From Syncephalis fuscata (lineage: Eukaryota > Zoopagomycota > Zoopagomycetes > Zoopagales > Piptocephalidaceae): a DNA stretch of 64,000 nucleotides. The stretch is from NCBI GenBank assembly GCA_025786725.1, contig JAHLTZ010000004.1, positions 186,001 to 250,000 on the forward strand. The letters run 5' to 3'. Every line of letters starts with the position of its first letter. Within the stretch, counting starts at the first letter, position 1. This document shows, piece after piece, positions 12,807 to 62,215 of this stretch. The notes beneath the pieces were generated by a model. That model was given only the letters and a program-made list of their open reading frames with translations, was not told the DNA's origin and searched no databases. The position numbers were made by a program, and so were the translations under genes.

Positions 12807-13856
12807 CTACAACCGGCGTCGTTGTCTTACTACACGTCCCATCGCTTCACTGTAGATATGTGCATGTTCGGGATCTTCCATTAAACGCATATTAATCATC
12901 ATTTGTTTAATTCGATGATGCAACTTGACCAACAGTGTCTGTGTTGAAGCATCTTCTTCATCAATATTTTGTAATGGTGCAAACGATTCGCGTAAAGCAT
13001 CGGCCGATTGTCGTGCTAGTATTGCTGTGAACGCATTGGCACGTAACAGCTGATCCTTTAAAGACAACTCATCCGACATACTCTTAATCCATATTGGGCC
13101 TACTTGACTGACTGCAATGAAGAAATTAATATAAACTTGGTGCAGAATAGTAATTTGTTCGTGTGGCGTATATCTGGGCAGCATATTGCCGAACATCCAA
13201 AGCAGCCATGACTCTGGCCATAGCGTTAAACTGGCTTCAGTAAGAAACATGCCACAAAGAGCGAGCCAGCGCCAGTAACTGCCAAAACCAGCTTTACCAA
13301 ACAGTGCAAATAATCCTATAGTAGTCACGGTGCCAATATAGTAACCTAGCATATTTGGTACGGCATTCTTTCGATACTCCTCAACTGTGCGACATCTTGG
13401 ACATTGGTTCTGTTCCATACCAAAACGGTCATAGACATATCGACGCACCGGATCATTAAGTGTTTCATAGGCCTCGCGAATCCTAATAAACTGGTCTTCG
13501 TTGCCATCATTTTTATCGGGATGTGCTTGGAGTGAAAGCTTTTTAAAGTTGAGTTTCAATGCCCTTGAATTGAACTTTGACGGTGTTAAATTAAGTTGCG
13601 TATAATGGTTCGTTGGAAGTTGCTGACACGCCTCTAATACTGTGTACGCCAGATAACTGAGCACTACAATAGTATAGATGCGTCGATTGTGGCGATTGTA
13701 TTTCGCATCTCCTGGGGCGGGCTGAGAGCGTGAATCTACTGGATAAACTATCCGGTAATAGATCGACTGTATGATTTTAGTGACGAATCCCGGCACAAAG
13801 GTCCATAATAGCATGTAGACATACATGGAGGAGCTACCGCTCTCTGAAGAGCCCAT
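12807..13856 (-). CDS. Multi-pass membrane J-domain (DnaJ) protein
   Basis: An intronless 349-residue Hsp40 co-chaperone expected to recruit and stimulate an Hsp70 at a membrane, probably the ER. Two hydrophobic segments (about 11-30 and 60-77) precede a J-domain at about residues 84-150, with the diagnostic HPDK at 112-115 (LQAHPDKNDG) and the helix IREAYETLNDPVRRYVYDRFG. A CPRC pair (about 154-157) follows, then more hydrophobic stretches (YYIGTVTTIGLFALFGK; WLALCGMFLTEASLTLW) and a helical basic C-terminus ending RQRRRL. The layout matches fungal ER-membrane J-proteins, but I cannot assign an orthologue. Confidence 0.85.
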   Translation of the reverse strand: MGSSESGSSSMYVYMLLWTFVPGFVTKIIQSIYYRIVYPVDSRSQPAPGDAKYNRHNRRIYTIVVLSYLAYTVLEACQQLPTNHYTQLNLTPSKFNSRALKLNFKKLSLQAHPDKNDGNEDQFIRIREAYETLNDPVRRYVYDRFGMEQNQCPRCRTVEEYRKNAVPNMLGYYIGTVTTIGLFALFGKAGFGSYWRWLALCGMFLTEASLTLWPESWLLWMFGNMLPRYTPHEQITILHQVYINFFIAVSQVGPIWIKSMSDELSLKDQLLRANAFTAILARQSADALRESFAPLQNIDEEDASTQTLLVKLHHRIKQMMINMRLMEDPEHAHIYSEAMGRVVRQRRRL

Positions 13857-14536
13857 ACTAGCAACGCTGTTCTTTGTTTAGTTAACGAGCAAGACAGAGA
13901 AAGTAGGAAAGAAAGCGGGATAGAGAGAAGGGAAGAAAAGTATAGGCGATTCAGGTAATACAACACTGCTATAGGAGGTAATACTTTGAGAACATTATCA
14001 GTACAACTTAAAGTTCCTGTTGACGACTCTAATATAGTCAGTACTTTTATAATGCAGTTTAATATTTTTATTAAATTTTTAGCTTGTGTGAAACTATAAA
14101 ATATTATAATTAAAGCTTAATAGTACGATATAAAGAATTGTAGTGTAGTGTAATAATGTTTAAAATAATAAATGACTAGAATACAATATTGCGACAACAC
14201 TCGCTTAAATGTCACAATAGTCGTACTAATACACTGGCCTATAAAAGTCATGGCATATGTAACAAAAATACCAGGAGGATAGTCACAAAATATATGGAGT
14301 TATATCAATTGCATGTATGCATAGCTATTTAACTTTGGGTTCAGCGAGCTTTATTACTATGCTTTGACTTGAATATAAGAATGCCATGTATATTTAGTTT
14401 ACAGTTATATCTCCAGTACAAGTAGGGACTGATACAAAATAGCATTGAGTCGAGCGCGCAATTTACACTGAGGCATCCTTCCGACAATGATCATACAAGA
14501 ACATAGCAGTAATCCAGCTTAAAATAAGCTGTCTAT

Positions 14537-17470
14537 CCTTGCAGCTAAATCACAATGCCGAACATAAATGAATATACGAACCAATCAGTATACTTTTATG
14601 CTTTGAAGAACTGCAGCTAGCATATACGTAACAGAAGATAATTGTAAGAAAGTACGGTTTAGTGCATTAAAACTGATGCCGCATTGATATCATGCATTGT
14701 TTGTAAAAAAGATGTTTATTTACCAACTATCAATAAATGTAACCATCTGTAAAATAGAGGAAATAAATATTTTGTCTCAATTGACCAGCTTCATTTTCTT
14801 GCAGAAAAATCTATTGGTTTCTTTCTAAGATAGCACGACTATTTGCTTACCATGCACTGTTTGGAGTGCATAAAGATATTGGGATACATTTGCCGAAAAA
14901 TAGCAGCAAATGCACAGTGATGCATCGTCACTGTTTTTATAGAACCAATAAATTCAGTTTACACTGCATAGCTGAATTATGTAGCTGCAAAACAAAATTG
15001 ATAGGTGTATTTCTATTGCACCATAGATATATTGGTATACGCATGCTTTAAGCTATCATGTGGCTGTGTTCTATTGGTTACATTATGTTCTAATGGTACG
15101 ATTTATACAATAAATTTACTTGATGCCTCACCATAATTACAGATTTAAATAGTTCGCATAATATACACATCTAGCTAACAGTGTCACCATTAAACCTCGC
15201 TTTCTGCCAAATACCCACTATTACCTACTTTATACCAATCCACTCTATTGTTTATTTAGCAAATCGATAATAACATGAAGCTTTTTATTGCCGTTCTCTG
15301 CGCCATTGCCGCGACTCTTGTGATTAGTACAGCTATAGTGGATGCTAAACCAACTTCATTAGGCCATGGTATGTTGCAATTACAATAAACATCCAATAGT
15401 GTTATGTTTACTAAATCTGTGTCTAATTGATGATGATACTAGGTGGTAAGTCCTTATTATAGGCTATTGTGTTTGCACTTACTGTATGTTGTTATACACA
15501 TTATAAACATTATAAACACATTTGAACAGTCGGTAAGTGTTGGACATACATTTTTAATAAATTACTAATTAATGAATAACTGCTAATGTAAAACGGATAA
15601 ACCAGTACCATTGGCTAAGAGTAAGTTTAATATAAAACAATAAATAAAGCACTTGTTCATAACACTAATATAATAAATTTATATTAATAGGAGGTAAACC
15701 ACAATAGAAATTGCCAGTTATTTAACTAATTAAGTATTGTTTATACTACCAAACTAACTTTACTAGCTCGTAAGTAGCATTAAATATTAAATATATATCA
15801 TACATCATATATGTCTAATAACTTGTATCAATAGCCCGTAAGTGGCATTGAATAGCACATGACTATATCTAAACATATATCATGCATATTGCGTATTTAA
15901 TAACTTGTATTAATAGAGAGTAAGTGGCATCGAATAGTGCATATTTATATACTAAACATATATCATGCATATCATGTATTTAATAATTTGTATTAATAGT
16001 TCGTAAGTGACATTGAGTAGTGCATACTTATATAATAAACATATACCATACATGTCTAATAACTTGTGACATAGCTGGTAAGTAGCATTAGATAGTACAT
16101 GATTATATACTAAATATGTACCATATATTTATATGTCTAATAACTTGCATTAATAGCTCGTAAGTAGCATTAAATAATTACAATTACACACTAAATATAT
16201 ACCATATATCATACATGTCTAATAACTTGTGACATAGCTAGTAAGTAGCATTAAATAATTATAATTACATACTAAACATATACCGTATATTATACATATC
16301 TAATAATTTGTATTGATAGCTCGTAAGTGGCATTGGATGCTAATGAACAATATACTAAACATATACCATATACCATATATGTTTAATAATTTGTGGCATA
16401 GCTCGTAAGTAGCATTGAATAGTGCATAATTATATACTAAACATATACCATATACCATATATGCCTAATAACTTGTATTGATAGGACGTAAGTGGCATTG
16501 GATGCTAATGAACAATATACTAAACATATACCATATACCATATATGTTTAATAACTTGTATCAATAGCTTGTAAGTAGCATTGGATAGTTATGATTATAT
16601 ACTAAACATATACCATATACCATATATGTTTAATAACTTGTATCAATAGCTTGTAAGTAGCATCAGATAGCCATAATTATATACTAAACATATACCATGC
16701 ATTGCGCGCGTCTAATAACTTGTATTGATAGGGCGTAAGTGGCATTGTATAGCCATAATTATATACTAAACATATACCATGTACTGTGCGCGTCTAATAA
16801 CTTGTATTAATAGCTCGTAAGTGGCATTGAATATTAATGAGCTATATATTAAAAATATGTCATGCATATTATCTGTCTACTAACTTGCATTAATAGCTTG
16901 TAAGTGGCATTATATACTGCTCAACTATTACTAAAAATATACTATAAACTGTGTGTTTAATAACTTGTATTAACAGAAGGTAAGTGGCAACATATAATGT
17001 TAGATTGTGCATTAATTCTATGGCATATCTTACATTATTTATAACCATAGAGTAACCGATGCTTTCAAGGCATCAGCATTGGTAGTATGGTTGAGCTGCT
17101 AGCTTCATACACTTTAGGTATATATTCGGCAAGAAACAAGCCCATTCAACAACTGCCGTTTAGTTCATTTATATATCAAGTTCTAACCAATGCTCCGGTT
17201 TATTGGCCTTTCAATCAATGGCATCATTATATTACCAACAAGTCTGCAATGAGTTGTGCCTATTCAACTGTGCAAACCTTTAGTAATAAACACATGATTT
17301 CATTTTAATTATATTTGATCAAGCTGTTGTTAGATCATATTTTATTTGCATTTAAGAATTAGCAAACAATAGCCGAGTACACAGATTAGCAGTACAATTT
17401 TACAATTTGCAAAGTTGCTTTTGTACGCTAATTATAATAATAATTTATTAATATGTAAAAAAATAATTAA
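14537..17470 (+). repeat. Cassette A: dispersed ~2.9 kb repeat carrying a microexon gene
   Basis: This block is present in inverted orientation at about 48520-51450 (C) and 59288-62215 (D) with near identity, and in a more diverged form at about 37770-40590 plus 3' flank (B). It consists of a ~700 bp 5' flank (starting near the shared CACAATGCCGAACATAAATG), the microexon gene, and a ~450 bp conserved 3' region that ends at an AT-rich stretch. I see no transposase, terminal repeats or target-site duplication, so it is a dispersed gene cassette rather than a recognisable transposon. Confidence 0.85.
15275..16978 (+). CDS. Secreted peptide precursor encoded by single-codon (3-nt) microexons, copy A
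   Basis: Exon 1 (15275-15368, 94 nt) starts MKLFIAVLCAIAATLVIS, a clear signal peptide, and ends in phase 1. Internal exons, each AG|exon|GT: 15443 GTG, 15540 TCG, 15606-15620 TACCATTGGCTAAGA, 15693 GAG, 15767 CTC, 15835 CCC, 15917 AGA, 16000 TTC, 16075 CTG, 16157 CTC, 16238 CTA, 16320 CTC, 16402 CTC, 16485 GAC, 16568 CTT, 16650 CTT, 16732 GGC, 16814 CTC, 16897 CTT, 16977 AAG. Joined, they read GVVPLAKR then APQIPAPTPRPSWPP, then TAA formed as T|AA across the last junction. LAKR is a Kex2-type dibasic site, so a 15-residue mature peptide is predicted. Introns are ~79 nt with TCTAATAAC branch-like and TTAATAG acceptor motifs. A final exon beginning AGTAACC at about 17052 would be untranslated. 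Function is unknown; a pheromone-like signal or effector is inference. Confidence 0.72.
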
Positions 17471-37769: not shown

Positions 37770-38261
37770 AATTATTTATTCTTTTACATATTAATAAATT
37801 ATTATTATAATTAGCGTACAAAAGCAACTTTGCAAATTGTAAAATTGTACTGCTAATCTGTGTACTCGGCTATTGTTTGCTAATTCTTAAATGCAAATAA
37901 AATATGATCTAACAACAGCTTGATCAAATATAATTAAAATGAAATCATGTGTTTATTACTAAAGGTTTGCACAGTTGAATAGGCACAACTCATTGCAGAC
38001 TTGTTGTAATATAATGATGCCATTGATTGAAAGGCCAATAAACCGGAGCATTGGTTAGAACTTGATATATAATGAGCTAAACGGCAGTTGTTGGATGGGC
38101 TTGTTTCTTGCCGAATATATACCTAAAGTGTATGAAGCTAGCAGCTCAACCATACTACCAATGCTGATGCCTTGAAAGCATCGGTTACTCTATGGTTATA
38201 AATAATGTAAAACATATCATAAAATTAATGCACAATCTAACATTATATGCTGCCACTTACC

Positions 38262-39882
38262 TTCTGTTAATATAAGTTATCAAACACACACAGTTTACAG
38301 TATATGCTTAGTAATAGTTGATCAGTATATAATGCCACTTACAAGCTATTAATGCAAGTTAGTAGACAGATAATATGCATGACATATTTTTAATATATAG
38401 CTTATTAATATTTAATATTACTTACAACCTATTGGATACATACAATGCATGACATATGCTTAGTAGATAGCTCATCAATATACAATATAACTTACCAACT
38501 ATTGATACAAATTATTAAATATACAAATCGTGTATGATATATGTTTAATATATCATTTATTAATATCTGATACTACTTACGACCTGTCGATACAAGTTAT
38601 TAAATACACAATATGCATTACGTATGTTTAGTATATATTTTAATAATATAAAATACTACTTACCGACTAGTAATCCAGGTTATTAAATACACAGTACATG
38701 ATATGTTTAGTATATAGCTTATTAATGAACAACAGTACTTACCTTCTATTAATACAAATTATTAAACACACATGATACACAACGTGTGTTTAGTATATGG
38801 CTAATTGATGTGCAGTGACACTTACCAACTAAAATTACAAATTGTATATAATATATGCTTAGTATATAGTTAATTGTATACAATGGTACTTACAATCTGT
38901 TGATACGAATCATTAGACACACAGGATGCATTATATATGCTTAGTATATAGTGAATCAATATAAAATGCCACTTACTCTCTATTAATACAAGTTATCAAA
39001 TACACGCAATGTATAGTATATGATTAGTATATGAATCATTAATAGATAATGGTGCTTACCTTCTATTAATACAAATTATTAAATACACATGATACACAAC
39101 ATGCGTTTAGTATATAGCTAATTGACGTGCAGTAATACTGACCAACTATTGATACAAGTTATTGAACACAATTCGTGTATGATATATGTTTAGTTTATAA
39201 GTAATTAATATATAATGGCACTTACAAACTAGCAATGCACGTTATTGAGCACGCAGTGCATGGCATATACTTAGTGGTAATTAATCAATATATAATTCCA
39301 CTTACCGACTATTAATACAAGTTATAAAGTAAACATAGCACATAATATACGTTTAGTATATAGCTTATTAATGTACACTGCCGCTTACTTTCTATTATGT
39401 TATTATTTTCGATGCAAACAATAGTTAGCCAAATAAATAAATAATACTTTCCACGGTAGTTTACCTCCTATTAATATAAATTCAGTATATTAGCATTATT
39501 AACGTGGCACTTTATTTATTGTTTTATATTAAACTTACTCTTAGATAATGGTACTGGTTTATTCGTTTTTGATCAACAAGCAATCATTAATTAGTAATTT
39601 ATTAAAAACTTATGATTAATACTTACCGTCTGCTTAAATGTATTTATGGCGTTTATCACATGTATAGCAACATACAGTAAGTACAGGAACAATAATCTAT
39701 AATCAGGACTTACCAGCTAACATAACCATTAGTTAGCTATAATGCTAGAAATACACCAATATGCACATTTATTATAATTGTAACATACCACGATGAGCTA
39801 GAGCTGGCATAGCATCCACCATAGCCATATTGGCGACAAGAGCTACGATAATGGTGCAGATGATGGAAATAGAAAGCTTCAT
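38262..39882 (-). CDS. Secreted peptide precursor encoded by 3-nt microexons, copy B (divergent peptide)
   Basis: Same architecture as copy A. Exon 1 (39789-39882, 94 nt) starts MKLSISIICTIIVALVANM, a signal peptide, and ends in phase 1. Exons in transcript order (lower coordinate): 39714 CTG, 39627 ACG, 39539-39553 TACCATTATCTAAGA, 39465 GAG, 39389 AAA, 39306 TCG, 39226 TTT, 39143 TTG, 39060 AAG, 38977 AGA, 38894 ATT, 38826 TTG, 38743 AAG, 38664 TCG, 38581 GTC, 38496 TTG, 38426 GTT, 38343 CTT, 38261 AAG. Joined: ADVPLSKR, then EIVFEENFEVGLGS and a TAA split as T|AA. The KR site is kept, but the 14-residue mature peptide is acidic and unrelated to the proline-rich peptide of A, C and D. One donor is GTCAGT (after 39143), two are GTAAGC. 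No stop arises in 20 consecutive junctions. Confidence 0.7.
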
Positions 39883-40020
39883 GGTGATATCGATCTGTTG
39901 AAACAAGCAAGTAGAATGAGCAATAGAGCCTGTTTACGTAAAGTAGATAGTAGCGTAAAACAAGTAAAAGTAAACTTTTGCGTAAGTGGTAAAATGTGAT
40001 AAAACGTAACAGTGTGATAA

Positions 40021-40528
40021 CGAAAATGTTTACTCCAAATAAACTGTGTGCATATTTAAATAATGCTAATGTGGGTGATTGGAGTGTATATATGATGGTA
40101 CCGTATATATATATATATATATATGGAAACGTATAACGTGGATGATATCAATGCGGTAACGTAATACGTATTGATTCTCAGGTTACATATGTATATACAG
40201 CACATGTTACATAGCAAGTATTTAGCAGAAAGTAAATGTGCTGAGGATACCGTTAGCTATTGTGTAAGTTGTGTAAACTATTTAAATCTATAATTGTGAT
40301 GAGGCATCACATTTTACTTTCTGCTAAATACTTGCTATGTAACATGTGCTGTATATACATATGTAACCTGAGAATCAATACGTATTACGTTACCGCATTG
40401 ATATCATCCACATTATACGTTTCCATATATATATATATATATATACGGTACCATCATATATACACTCCAATCACCCACATTAGCATTATTTAAATATGCA
40501 CACAGTTTACTTGGAGTAAACATTTTCG
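40021..40528. repeat. Long near-perfect inverted repeat 5' of gene B
   Basis: Left arm 40021-40240 and right arm 40308-40528 are near-perfect complements over ~220 nt, including cgaaaatgtttactcc against its mirror at 40513-40528 and an inner end at tttagcagaaagtaaa. The ~67-nt loop (40241-40307) resembles the upstream region of cassettes A, C and D (gttagct...aactatttaaatct, ending gaggcatca). Thus the 5' flank of gene B was duplicated in inverted orientation. The arms start about 140 bp upstream of the gene B start codon. Confidence 0.88.
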
Positions 40529-41383
40529 GTACCACATTATTACATATTTATGCTTTGGTCATTTTACATGGAAATTGAATTTTATTTGTTACGTATATGC
40601 TAGCTGCAGTTCTTCAAAGCATAAAAGTATACTGATTGGTTCGTATATTCATTTATGTTCGGCATTGTGATTTAGTTGCAAGAATAAACATTTTACTTTA
40701 GCACTGTGCTACAGTCTGTTGATATGGGTTTATTTAGCAATCACTTGTGGACATGAATTATTGACTGCTGCCTAACAACACTTCCAATAGCAGAGCATTC
40801 AATTTTAGCATTGCTGTCATCGATTGTTCAACCATACAGCAATGTAACAACACTAGGCTGCACTGATTTGGCAATCTCCGTCAAATATATCCAGTGTTGA
40901 ATGTACGGCGGCAACATACAAATACTAACCAGTGACAATTTAAATGCACAAGTGATTTATTTGGCAATGACTCAAAGAATAGTTATCTGTTTATTATATC
41001 CATAGTGGTTTATTATAGGCGCACACATCAAATTGCTAACAATTCAAGACAAACTACATCAGGACAAGACTGTGGCATTGAAACTCATAGCAATATCACA
41101 TTCTAAGCATATTCTTACCAGTCTGTAAATCCATGGCAATACTGTCATCATTCCAATAACTATGGCTATATTCAATGAATATTGCTTTCAACACTTAATA
41201 TAAAGACAATTTTTAATAAAGTAATTTTTATTTCATATATACTGACAAAAGAACGACAACGATCATATTGCAGCGGAACAGTTCTAATTAAAATAATGTT
41301 GATTATGATAATCCAATTTTTACTTGTATCAAATTTGTGTGCAATTTCATAACCAAATATTACATTTTTTAATTTTTATTAGT

Positions 41384-48519: not shown

Positions 48520-51450
48520 TATTTTTTTACATATTAACAAATTATTATTATAATTAGCGTACAAAAGCAACTTTGCAAATTGTAAAATATACTGTTAATA
48601 CGTTTACTCGGCTATTGTTTGCTAATTCTTAAATGCAAATAAAACATGATCTAACACAACAGCTTGATCAAATATAATTAAAATGAAATCATGTGTTTAT
48701 TTACTAAAGGTTTGCACAGTTGAATAGGCACAACTCATTGCAGACTTGTTGGTAATATAATGATGCCATTGATTGAAAGGCCAATAAACCGGAGCATTGG
48801 TTAGAACTTGATATATAAATGAACTAAACGGCAGTTGTTGAATGGGCTTGTTTCTTGCCGAATATATACCTAAAGTGTATGAAGCTAGCAGCTCAACCAT
48901 ACTACCAATGCTGATGCCTTGAAAGCATCGGTTACTCTATGGTTATAAATAAATGTAAAACATATCATAAAATTAATGCACAATCTAACATTATATGCTG
49001 CCACTTACCTTCTGTTAATATAAGTTATCAACACACACAGTTTACAATATATGCTTAGTAATAGTTGATCAGTATATAATGCCACTTACAAGCTATTAAT
49101 GCAAGTTAGTAGACAGATAATATGCATGACATATTTTTAATATATAGCTCATTAATATTCAATGCCACTTACGAGCTATTAATACAAGTTATTAGACGCG
49201 CACAGTACATGGTATATGTTTAGTATATAATTATGGCTATACAATGCCACTTACGCCCTATCAATACAAGTTATTAGACGCGCGCAATGCATGGTATATG
49301 TTTAGTATATAATTATGGCTATCTGATGCTACTTACAAGCTATTGATACAAGTTATTAAACATATATGGTATATGGTATATGTTTAGTATATAATCATAA
49401 CTATCCAATGCTACTTACAAGCTATTGATACAAGTTATTAAACATATATGGTATATGGTATATGTTTAGTATATTGTTCATTAGCATCCAATGCCACTTA
49501 CGTCCTATCAATACAAGTTATTAGGCATATATGGTATATGGTATATGTTTAGTATATAATTATGCACTATTCAATGCTACTTACGAGCTATGCCACAAAT
49601 TATTAAACATATATGGTATATGGTATATGTTTAGTATATTGTTCATTAGCATCCAATGCCACTTACGAGCTATCAATACAAATTATTAGATATGTATAAT
49701 ATACGGTATATGTTTAGTATGTAATTATAATTATTTAATGCTACTTACTAGCTATGTCACAAGTTATTAGACATGTATGATATATGGTATATATTTAGTG
49801 TGTAATTGTAATTATTTAATGCTACTTACGAGCTATTAATGCAAGTTATTAGACATATAAATATATGGTACATATTTAGTATATAATCATGTACTATCTA
49901 ATGCTACTTACCAGCTATGTCACAAGTTATTAGACATGTATGGTATATGTTTATTATATAAGTATGCACTACTCAATGTCACTTACGAACTATTAATACA
50001 AATTATTAAATACATGATATGCATGATATATGTTTAGTATATAAATATGCACTATTCGATGCCACTTACTCTCTATTAATACAAGTTATTAAATACGCAA
50101 TATGCATGATATATGTTTAGATATAGTCATGTGCTATTCAATGCCACTTACGGGCTATTGATACAAGTTATTAGACATATATGATGTATGATATATATTT
50201 AATATTTAATGCTACTTACGAGCTAGTAAAGTTAGTTTGGTAGTATAAACAATACTTAATTAGTTAAATAACTGGCAATTTCTATTGTGGTTTACCTCCT
50301 ATTAATATAAATTTATTATATTAGTGTTATGAACAAGTGCTTTATTTATTGTTTTATATTAAACTTACTCTTAGCCAATGGTACTGGTTTATCCGTTTTA
50401 CATTAGCAGTTATTCATTAATTAGTAATTTATTAAAAATGTATGTCCAACACTTACCGACTGTTCAAATGTGTTTATAATGTTTATAATGTGTATAACAA
50501 CATACAGTAAGTGCAAACACAATAGCCTATAATAAGGACTTACCACCTAGTATCATCATCAATTAGACACAGATTTAGTAAACATAACACTATTGGATGT
50601 TTATTGTAATTGCAACATACCATGGCCTAATGAAGTTGGTTTAGCATCCACTATAGCTGTACTAATCACAAGAGTCGCGGCAATGGCGCAGAGAACGGCA
50701 ATAAAAAGCTTCATGTTATTATCGATTTGCTAAATAAACAATAGAGTGGATTGGTATAAAGTAGGTAATAGTGGGTATTTGGCAGAAAGCGAGGTTTAAT
50801 GGTGACACTGTTAGCTAGATGTGTATATTATGCGAACTATTTAAATCTGTAATTATGGTGAGGCATCAAGTAAATTTATTGTATAAATCGTACCATTAGA
50901 ACATAATGTAACCAATAGAACACAGCCACATGATAGCTTAAAGCATGCGTATATCAATATATCTATGGTGCAATAGAAATACACCTATCAATTTTGTTTT
51001 GCAGCTACATAATTCAGCTATGCAGTGTAAACTGAATTTATTGGTTCTATAAAAACAGCGACAATGCATCGCTGTGCATTTGCTGCTATTTTTCGGCAAA
51101 TGTATCCCTAATATCTTTATGCACTCCAAACAGTGCATGACAAGCAAATAGTCATGCTGCCTTAGAAAGAAATCAATAGATTTTTCTGCAAGAAAATGAA
51201 GCTGGTCAATTGAGACAAAATATTTATTTCCTCTATTTTACAGATGGTTACATTTATTGATAGTTGGTAAATAAACATCTTTTTTACAAACAATGCATGA
51301 TATCAATGCGGCATCAGTTTTAATGCACTAAACCGTACTTCCTTACATTTATCTTCTGTTACGTATATGCTAGCTGCAGTTCTTCAAAGCATAAAAGTAT
51401 ACTGATTGGTTCGTATATTCATTTATGTTCGGCATTGTGATTTAGTTGCA
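48520..51450 (-). repeat. Cassette C (inverted relative to A)
   Basis: Near-identical reverse complement of cassette A, including the 5' flank, microexon gene and 3' region. It spans the junction of tandem units 1 and 2, since the flank right of 51361 is also the start of unit 2. Intron sequences differ from A at scattered sites while all microexons are identical. Confidence 0.88.
49010..50714 (-). CDS. Secreted peptide precursor encoded by 3-nt microexons, copy C
   Basis: Exon 1 is 50621-50714. Exons in transcript order (lower coordinate): 50544 GTG, 50457 TCG, 50369-50383 (15 nt), 50296 GAG, 50220 CTC, 50152 CCC, 50070 AGA, 49987 TTC, 49912 CTG, 49830 CTC, 49749 CTA, 49677 CTC, 49585 CTC, 49502 GAC, 49419 CTT, 49337 CTT, 49255 GGC, 49173 CTC, 49090 CTT, 49009 AAG. 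The joined frame is identical in protein to copy A: signal peptide, GVVPLAKR, APQIPAPTPRPSWPP, stop split T|AA. The final, untranslated exon would begin at AGTAACC near 48938. All 20 internal exons match A although the introns carry substitutions and small indels, which favours selection on the exons or recent conversion. Confidence 0.72.
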
Positions 51451-59287: not shown

Positions 59288-62215
59288 TTATTTTTTTACA
59301 TATTAATAAATTATTATTATAATTAGCGTACAAAAGCAACTTTGCAAATTGTAAAATATACTGTTAATACGTTTACTCGGCTATTGTTTGCTAATTCTTA
59401 AATGCAAATAAAACATGATCTAACACAACAGCTTGATCAAATATAATTAAAATGAAATCATGTGTTTATTACTAAAGGTTTGCACAGTTGAATAGGCACA
59501 ACTCATTGCAGACTTGTTGGTAATATAATGATGCCATTGATTGAAAGGCCAATAAACCGGAGCATTGGTTAGAACTTGATATATGAATGAGCTAAACGGC
59601 AGTTGTTGGATGGGCTTGTTTCTTGCCGAATATATACCTAAAGTGTATGAAGCTAGCAGCTCAACCATATTACCAATGCTGATGCCTTGAAAGCATCGGT
59701 TACTCTATGGTTATAAATAAATGTAAAACATATCATAAAATTAATGCACAATCTAACATTATATGTTGCCACTTACCTTCTGTTAATACAAGTTATTAAA
59801 CACACAGTTTATAGTATATTTTTAGTAATAGTTGAGCAGTATATAATGCCACTTACAAGCTATTAATGCAAGTTAGTAGACAGATAATATGCATGACATA
59901 TTTTTAATATATAGCTCATTAATATTCAATGCCACTTACGAGCTATTAATACAAGTTATTAGACGCGCACAGTACATGGTATATGTTTAGTATATAATTA
60001 TGGCTATACAATGCCACTTACGCCCTATCAATACAAGTTATTAGACGCGCGCAATGCATGGTATATGTTTAGTATATAATTATGGCTATCTGATGCTACT
60101 TACAAGCTATTGATACAAGTTATTAAACATATATGGTATATGGTATATGTTTAGTATACAATTATAACTATCCAATGCTACTTACAAGCTATTGATACAA
60201 GTTATTAAACATATATGGTATATGGTATATGTTTAGTATATTGTTCATTAGCATCCAATGCCACTTACGTCCTATCAATACAAGTTATTAGGCATATATG
60301 GTATATGGTATATGTTTAGTATATAATTATGCACTATTCAATGCTACTTACGAGCTATGCCACAAATTATTAAACATATATGGTATATGGTATATGTTTA
60401 GTATATTGTTCATTAGCATCCAATGCTACTTACGAGCTATCAATACAAATTATTAGATATGTATAATATACGGTATATGTTTAGTATGTAATTATAATTA
60501 TTTAATGCTACTTACTAGCTATGTCACAAGTTATTAGACATGTATGATATATGGTATATATTTAGTGTGTAATTGTAATTATTTAATGCTACTTACGAGC
60601 TATTAATGCAAGTTATTAGACATATAAATATATGGTACATATTTAGTATATAATCATGTACTATCTAATGCTACTTACCAGCTATGTCACAAGTTATTAG
60701 ACATGTATGGTATATGTTTATTATATAAGTATGCACTACTCAATGTCACTTACGAACTATTAATACAAATTATTAAATACATGATATGCATGATATATGT
60801 TTAGTATATAAATATGCACTATTCGATGCCACTTACTCTCTATTAATACAAGTTATTAAATACGCAATATGCATGATATATGTTTAGCATATAGTCATGT
60901 GCTATTCAATGCCACTTACGGGCTATTGATACAAGTTATTAGACATATATGATGTATGATATATATTTAATATTTAATGCTACTTACGAGCTAGTAAAGT
61001 TAGTTTGGTAGTATAAACAATACTTAATTAGTTAAATAACTGGCAATTTCTATTGTGGTTTACCTCCTATTAATATAAATTTATTATATTAGTGTTATGA
61101 ACAAGTGCTTTATTTATTGTTTTATATTAAACTTACTCTTAGCCAATGGTACTGGTTTATCCGTTTTACATTAGCAGTTATTCATTAATTAGTAATTTAT
61201 TAAAAATGTATGTCCAACACTTACCGACTGTTCAAATGTGTTTATAATGTTTATAATGTGTATAACAACATACAGTAAGTGCAAACACAATAGCCTATAA
61301 TAAGGACTTACCACCTAGTATCATCATCAATTAGACACAGATTTAGTAAACATAACACTATTGGATGTTTATTGTAATTGCAACATACCATGGCCTAATG
61401 AAGTTGGTTTAGCATCCACTATAGCTGTACTAATCACAAGAGTCGCGGCAATGGCGCAGAGAACGGCAATAAAAAGCTTCATGTTATTATCGATTTGCTA
61501 AATAAACAATAGAGTGGATTGGTATAAAGTAGGTAATAGTGGGTATTTGGCAGAAAGCGAGGTTTAATGGTGACACTGTTAGCTAGATGTGTATATTATG
61601 CGAACTATTTAAATCTGTAATTATGGTGAGGCATCAAGTAAATTTATTGTATAAATCGTACCATTAGAACATAATGTAACCAATAGAACACAGCCACATG
61701 ATAGCTTAAAGCATGCGTATACCAATATATCTATGGTGCAATAGAAATACACCTATCAATTTTGTTTTGCAGCTACATAATTCAGCTATGCAGTGTAAAC
61801 TGAATTTATTGGTTCTATAAAAACAGCGACAATGCATCGCTGTGCATTTGCTGCTATTTTTCGGCAAACGTATCCCCAATATCTTTATGCACTCCAAACA
61901 GTGCATGGTAAGCAAATAGTCGTGCTATCTTAGAAAGAAACCAATAGATTTTTTTGCAAGAAAATGAAGCTGGTCAATTGAGACAAAATATTTATTTCCT
62001 CTATTTTACAGATGGTTACATTTATTGATAGTTGGTAAATAAACATCTTTTTTACAAACAATGCATGATATCAATGCGGCATCAGTTTTAATGCACTAAA
62101 CCGTACTTTCTTACATTTATCTTCTGTTACGTATATGCTAGCTGCAGTTCTTCAAAGCATAAAAGTATACTGATTGGTTCGTATATTCATTTATGTTCGG
62201 CATTGTGATTTAGTT
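59288..62215 (-). repeat. Cassette D
   Basis: Third close copy of the A-type cassette, in the orientation of C. It joins the truncated third unit at its right. Differences from C are scattered substitutions and small indels in introns and flanks. Confidence 0.88.
59778..61482 (-). CDS. Secreted peptide precursor encoded by 3-nt microexons, copy D
   Basis: Exon 1 is 61389-61482. Exons in transcript order (lower coordinate): 61312 GTG, 61225 TCG, 61137-61151 (15 nt), 61064 GAG, 60988 CTC, 60920 CCC, 60837 AGA, 60754 TTC, 60679 CTG, 60597 CTC, 60516 CTA, 60434 CTC, 60352 CTC, 60269 GAC, 60186 CTT, 60104 CTT, 60022 GGC, 59940 CTC, 59857 CTT, 59777 AAG. The predicted precursor is identical to A and C, ending in the mature peptide APQIPAPTPRPSWPP. 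Donor, branch-like and acceptor motifs are intact at every junction. Confidence 0.72.

Follow-up and report, generated by a model that had tools for sequence, protein, structure and literature searches.

How can a peptide be encoded if almost every one of its codons forms a separate exon? The question is raised by a locus in Syncephalis fuscata, lying in a window of 64,000 nt (assembly GCA_025786725.1, contig JAHLTZ010000004.1, positions 186,001 to 250,000 of the forward strand), for which a sequence-only reading had proposed a secreted peptide gene composed mostly of 3 nt exons. Exons of very small size are considered difficult to splice, and those on record are isolated exceptions. We consider it probable (about 0.88) that this locus, here termed gene A, and its relatives are real genes of a large secreted-peptide family in S. 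fuscata built from single-codon exons; their splicing is inferred from the signs of selection on the spliced product.

A putative peptide gene of single-codon exons

Gene A lies on the plus strand. Its first exon (15275..15368), 94 nt in length and ending in phase 1, appears to encode a signal peptide and the start of a propeptide. Twenty internal exons follow, of which one measures 15 nt and the remaining 19 exactly 3 nt, so that decoding bore out the proposed anatomy. The microexons GTG (15443..15445) and TCG (15530..15532) precede the 15 nt exon (15606..15620), which encodes V-P-L-A-K and with it the first part of a KR site, completed by the microexon GAG (15691..15693). The 16 further 3 nt exons, which with their introns occupy 15767..16979, start at 15767, 15835, 15917, 16000, 16075, 16157, 16238, 16320, 16402, 16485, 16568, 16650, 16732, 16814, 16897 and 16977, and encode the predicted mature peptide APQIPAPTPRPSWPP and a split stop codon. 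The terminal exon, the first 90 nt of which lie at 17051..17140, contains a 3' UTR homologous to that of the intronless paralogues described below. Joining the exons reproduced the expected single open frame, with a PLAKR-type site, mature peptide and stop: the predicted product is MKLFIAVLCAIAATLVISTAIVDAKPTSLGHGVVPLAKR followed by APQIPAPTPRPSWPP, with the TAA divided between the last two microexons. The predicted coding length is about 165 nt, 162 nt of it up to the final residue.

Between exon 1 and the last microexon lie 20 introns of 65-84 nt, 11 of them being 79 or 80 nt, in agreement with the anticipated length of around 79 nt. They had been described as near-identical, but are only similar: the units of the tandem array detected within the gene (15784-16989) match at 76%. 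Likewise, the form AG-NNN-GTAAGT, proposed for every 3 nt exon, holds for the donor in 18 of 19 cases, but not for GAG at 15691, where the donor is GTAAAC. The proposed extent of the gene, 15275..16978, is correct at its start, but the last microexon (16977-16979) stops one base later and the 3' UTR exon lies beyond it.

Related genes in the window

Three more genes of this kind are found in the window, all on the minus strand. Gene B is a diverged paralogue with the same anatomy as gene A, comprising exon 1 (39789..39882), an array (38261..39716) of 19 internal exons, 18 of which are 3 nt long, and a terminal exon (first 90 nt at 38100..38189); its product would be a different peptide, with EIVFEENFEVGLGS following PLSKR and preceding the stop. 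Genes C and D each have 20 internal exons, 19 of 3 nt, and predicted products identical to that of gene A; exon 1, array and first 90 nt of the terminal exon lie at 50621..50714, 49009..50546 and 48847..48936 in gene C, and at 61389..61482, 59777..61314 and 59615..59704 in gene D.

Several other features were observed in the window. Within a tandem segmental duplication, its copies offset by around 10.77 kb (e.g. 41476/52246 and 50714/61482), lie a DHBP synthase gene, another gene with matches to EF-hand and Pyr_redox_2, and peptide genes C and D. An inverted repeat of 236 nt (40001-40236 and 40313-40548), 97% complementary with a 76 nt spacer, lies just upstream of gene B, whilst a DnaJ protein encoded at 12807-13877 has 59% identity to a Syncephalis plumigaleata protein. 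Rfam gave no match in the window at gathering scores, and ARAGORN detected no tRNA there.

Distribution of the family in the genome

The genome sequence searched amounts to 28.95 Mb, in which the motif TTAATAG-NNN-GTAAGT has 1992 matches, duplicates and relics included, as against one match to the reversed control. When the 3 nt spacer was replaced by 2, 4, 5 or 6 nt, there were 13, 5, 2 and 6 matches, with 8, 4, 0 and 2 in the respective reversed controls. A two-unit pattern matched 3053 times, compared with 20 times when reversed; together with the strict motif, this upholds the contention that the motif is not a product of chance. As decoded arrays contain a mean of 16.2 such matches (calculated from 26 of 27 arrays, omitting L012), the two-unit count suggests, as a rough estimate, a total of around 190 arrays in the genome, duplicates and relics included. 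The signal-peptide exon has at least 150 matching places among 341 candidates. In a survey restricted to multi-unit clusters, the four on contig C1 each lay behind an exon 1 of the family.

One set of 20 loci consisted of 15 arrays, three intronless genes (L017, L023 and L024) and two decayed copies (L015 and L016). These 15 arrays and genes A-D formed a set of 19 decoded array loci, which was extended by eight to 27; removal of C, D and L010, as near-identical copies, left the 16 and 24 arrays used for counts. Selection was mostly through similarity of exon 1, hence the arrays are not a random sample, and L059 and L061, decoded later, are outside all counts. For 23 of the 27 loci, decoding also yielded a terminal exon. 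Array L058 has no recognised exon 1 within the stretch examined. The relic or decayed loci are L015, L016, L057 and L060; L057, apparently a relic array, has ACG at the expected start of exon 1 and a stop within that exon, and L060, another apparent relic, has an array and a UTR-like end with no recognisable exon 1.

Exon lengths, reading frame and stop codons

The decoder scored splice signals together with intron length, and by default exon length as well; reading frame and stop codons played no part. The acceptor matrix was learned from AG-NNN-GTAAGT pairs; by default, exons of 3, 6 and 15 nt are favoured, exons of up to 24 nt are permitted and introns are centred near 79 nt. All counts come from the third version of the decoder, which allows long introns and a terminal exon. 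Of its predecessors, the first demanded strong acceptors, stopped early and was dropped, and the second was replaced as it was unable to cross long introns.

When the exon length preference was removed, 469 of 473 exons in the 19 loci were recovered, and in the 16 arrays 383 of 413 exons were 3 nt long and 406 were multiples of three. Exon 1 is 94 or 97 nt long in the 19 array loci, such that the arrays start in phase 1, and 406 of the 413 internal exons keep that phase. Out-of-frame units of 2 or 4 nt occur in four of the 24 arrays (L014, L019, L021 and L049). Just two of 591 three-nt exons begin with TA, a hint of a splicing constraint, since TA would place a decoy GTA beside the acceptor.

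With the exons in their true order, there are no interior stops among the 455 codons of the 16 arrays, compared with a mean of 15.3 and a minimum of six in 2000 shuffles of exon order within genes; in the 24 arrays there is one in 685 codons, whereas 2000 shuffles averaged 26.3 and never gave fewer than 11, the last two codons of each array being left out of all these counts. L049, an array with degraded units, accounts for the single interior stop. Reading each triplet as a codon in its own right also gives few stops (three in 634), hence stops alone do not fix the frame; what fixes it is that the array reads on from exon 1, together with the PLAKR-type site and the cysteine pattern described below.

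These data bear on whether the arrays could be a non-coding satellite of around 82 bp, with AG-NNN-GTAAGT present in the unit by chance and the open frame accidental. The tandem repeats are real, and relic arrays exist, as a satellite would have it. However, intron lengths are spread over all three classes modulo three (168, 155 and 104), yet of the 2018 motif matches with spacers of 2-6 nt, 1992 have a spacer of 3 nt; furthermore, there are hardly any interior stops, and the cysteine framework requires the true exon order. We attach a negligible probability to the satellite explanation. The original proposal that all the microexons are joined into one secreted-peptide frame is instead supported by the exon-order shuffles and the restriction of the spacer to 3 nt, as well as by the three paralogues in the window, the 23 arrays decoded elsewhere and the cysteine framework of the intronless paralogues, all of which point to splicing as predicted.

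Intronless paralogues and the cysteine framework

In 18 of 20 short loci, the signal exon continues, uninterrupted by introns, into a frame of 64-111 aa; the other two, L046 and L047, are arrays. Of these 18 taken together with L017 and L023, fourteen align on the pattern C-x2-C-x3-C-xn-C-x3-C-x3-C, with five of the cysteines invariant, whilst other intronless loci, such as L039, L041, L043 and L044, encode different peptides, and the frame of L040 extends into sequence that is UTR in other loci. The same six-cysteine framework is found in seven of the 24 array products (L013, L018, L020, L025, L051, L052 and L053), that of L052 being decoded as GSYEECKACMVVCKDRGELSKEQCQGKCYNQCNNPQP; it appeared in at most one array in any of 2000 shuffles, which were scored with the same pattern, this having been picked after the products were seen. 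In a profile test based on the intronless family, the true exon order scored above all 200 shuffles in five of the 24 arrays; one to five shuffles scored as high in seven, more did so in nine, and three had no score.

The similarity between the two types of gene also includes their flanks. Intronless L017 matches the 500 bp upstream of array gene L013 at 79%, with L023 and L015 matching array genes closely over about the last 100 bp only. The 3' UTRs of intronless genes match the terminal exon of array genes, and short UTR sequences such as TTTCAAG..CATCAGCATTGG recur downstream of many genes of either type. Because they share the signal exon, a homologous 3' UTR and the cysteine framework, the intronless paralogues offer a natural view of the spliced product expected from the arrays.

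Frequent skipping of microexons, giving each gene an in-frame mixture of peptides, would make alternative splicing the point of this organisation. The frame does survive the loss of a 3 nt exon, and skipping has been suggested for schistosome microexon genes (PMC4671649); the cysteine spacing, on the other hand, implies selection on the form in which all exons are included. We view widespread skipping as possible, if somewhat unlikely, and take full inclusion as the predicted form.

At E <= 1, a protein search with L023 retrieved just three proteins, all from S. fuscata, and the records of the family proteins P0008-P0010 carry that species name; a protein search with the product of gene A returned no candidate. 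In P0008, the one deposited model that was traced, intron 1 is removed and translation then reads through from microexon 1 into intron 2, such that the joined-microexon product is absent. Such a model would be apt if the mRNA retained the later introns and encoded a short peptide of this form. Yet the tail of P0008 is intron sequence, and the distribution of stops, the cysteine framework and the intronless paralogues favour joined microexons; partial splicing of this kind is accordingly given a very small, if not quite negligible, chance. Given that a single protein search finds three members, compared with at least 150 places matching the signal exon, gene finders miss the family, and as they miss the S. 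fuscata arrays, other genomes may conceal genes of the same kind.

Divergence between paralogues

Four close pairs of arrays (L011/L012, L012/L026, L011/L026 and L018/L019) differ at 25-44% of microexon bases, compared with 6.6-14% in introns, 0.8-3.7% in donor signals, 0-3.2% in exon 1 and 0-7.8% in the upstream 500 bp. The excess in microexons over introns has Fisher p values from 6.6e-5 to 7e-11, with three of the four pairs sharing members. Microexons likewise diverge more than introns in the more distant pairs A/B and L027/L028, making six pairs in total. In the near-identical pairs A/C, A/D, C/D and L009/L010, none of the 72 microexon bases differs in any pair and introns differ by 0.1-0.9%, hence faster change in microexons is not seen at this distance.

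Whole codon-plus-intron units are present in one paralogue and missing from the other. In L020 a block of eight units recurs ten units further on, the introns of the two copies being 94-100% identical; repeated CAA/ACC units occur in L011, and L027 has three consecutive GAG units. The arrays have probably lengthened by tandem duplication of codon-plus-intron units and shortened by their loss: each duplication or loss would add or remove one residue whilst keeping the frame, with the codons then diverging fast, perhaps under selection.

The order of events could also have been the reverse, with intronless genes first and introns later inserted at each codon, rather than arrays first and intronless genes arising through recombination with cDNA. 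A tree built from 19 array genes and 20 intronless ones requires five label changes (3-7 in bootstraps) and leaves the root unsettled, and a codon test of arrays against intronless genes is not significant (p 0.26), both of which leave room for an intronless ancestor. Nevertheless, the uniform phase, uniform 3 nt spacing and unit duplications are better suited to tandem growth than to repeated insertion, and an intronless origin appears unlikely, though well short of negligible.

Predicted processing, structure and function

In the proposed mechanism, each intron of around 79 nt would be removed separately by the spliceosome, most likely through intron definition, with the 3 nt exons joined in order. 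As every decoded array starts in phase 1, a microexon would complete one codon with its first two bases and begin the next with its third. Exon 1 looks to encode the signal peptide and, in 21 of the 27 decoded arrays, where it ends in a dibasic RR site, a putative propeptide; the array would supply the mature peptide, and the last exon the 3' UTR, preceded in some cases by the final residues and the stop. In genes A-D, L009 and L010, where exon 1 has no RR site, a KR site lies within the array instead. A second, PLAKR-like dibasic site was observed in a subfamily made up of A-D, L009, L010, L027, L028, L034, L041 and L054, which mixes arrays with intronless genes (L034 and L041).

AlphaFold2 modelled the mature peptide of intronless L031, using 14 sequences, as a helical hairpin (pLDDT 84.7, pTM 0.49). 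This peptide had no sequence match among solved structures, and a fold search with the predicted hairpin gave no match at E <= 0.001. In a Pfam search with nine proteins, seven of them intronless paralogues, none scored above the gathering threshold; the best hit, TIL, reached 15.7 bits where 24.5 were required. Species of Syncephalis are parasites of other fungi. As the products are small, apparently secreted and fast-changing, and belong to a large family, we favour them as candidate secreted effectors or antifungal peptides, presumably released by dibasic cleavage, and a role in recognition is conceivable too.

More tentatively, and with less than even confidence, the roughly 190 arrays might be seen as a coding intron satellite, with information only in the 3 nt between repeat units, in which peptides evolve residue by residue through gain, loss and exchange of units, and in-frame skipping creates a combinatorial peptide library against other fungi.

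Comparison with known systems

A search of openly licensed PMC papers, preprints excluded, found no description of serial single-codon exons or of coding intron-repeat arrays, no paper linking fungal microexons to secreted peptides and none linking Syncephalis to microexons. On the strength of that search, we regard the gene organisation as new, though it would work like a microexon gene. To our knowledge, the S. fuscata arrays would be the most finely split genes known. Families of the conotoxin type combine a conserved signal peptide with a hypervariable, cysteine-rich mature peptide, and we know of no case where that mature part is split into microexons. Introner elements are similar introns scattered over unrelated genes.

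The two systems nearest to the arrays resemble them in gene plan. In schistosome microexon genes (MEGs), the signal peptide lies mostly or entirely in a long 5' exon, a run of microexons is central and the products are small and secreted; these microexons are of mixed sizes below 36 bp, 26 of 33 (79%) in MEGs 26-32 being symmetrical (PMC4671649). The decoded S. fuscata arrays similarly have long flanking exons around central microexons of less than 36 bp. Unlike those of MEGs, their microexons are one codon long (383 of 413), their introns are copies of one repeat, and intronless paralogues exist. Bicycle genes of aphids are likewise fast-evolving putative effectors with many small internal exons, almost all of which start at codon position 2, as do nearly all the small internal exons of the arrays; they differ in belonging to insects and having around 17 exons per gene on average, and the accessible text mentions neither single-codon exons nor repeated intron units (PMC9168663).

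Splicing of exons as small as 1-3 nt, in both a plant and a fungus, is documented by an alternatively spliced 3 nt exon and by the 1 nt exons of Arabidopsis APC11 and Fusarium CYP621A (PMC4674806, PMC12940212), the Fusarium case also drawing support from an intronless relative. These are single exons rather than arrays, the 1 nt ones lying in conserved cellular genes. Functional microexons were termed undescribed in filamentous fungi until 2024, with Trichoderma virens Xlr2 providing an instance of one; this differs in being a single regulated exon in a transcription factor (PMC11121469). If the S. fuscata genes are as predicted, long series of single-codon exons in one genome would constitute a natural test of small-exon recognition, and would offer a route by which an intron repeat can become coding sequence and a peptide can vary one residue at a time.

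Insertions in array introns

One array intron of 414-502 nt was observed in each of L012, L022, L026, L027, L049 and L061. ARAGORN identified no tRNA in the loci with inserted elements. In L022, L026, L027 and L049, such introns contain an element of around 400 bp with GCTTGTGAGCCCC near its start, the exon array resuming downstream; the far end of this element resembles, by eye, a reversed tRNA-derived SINE.
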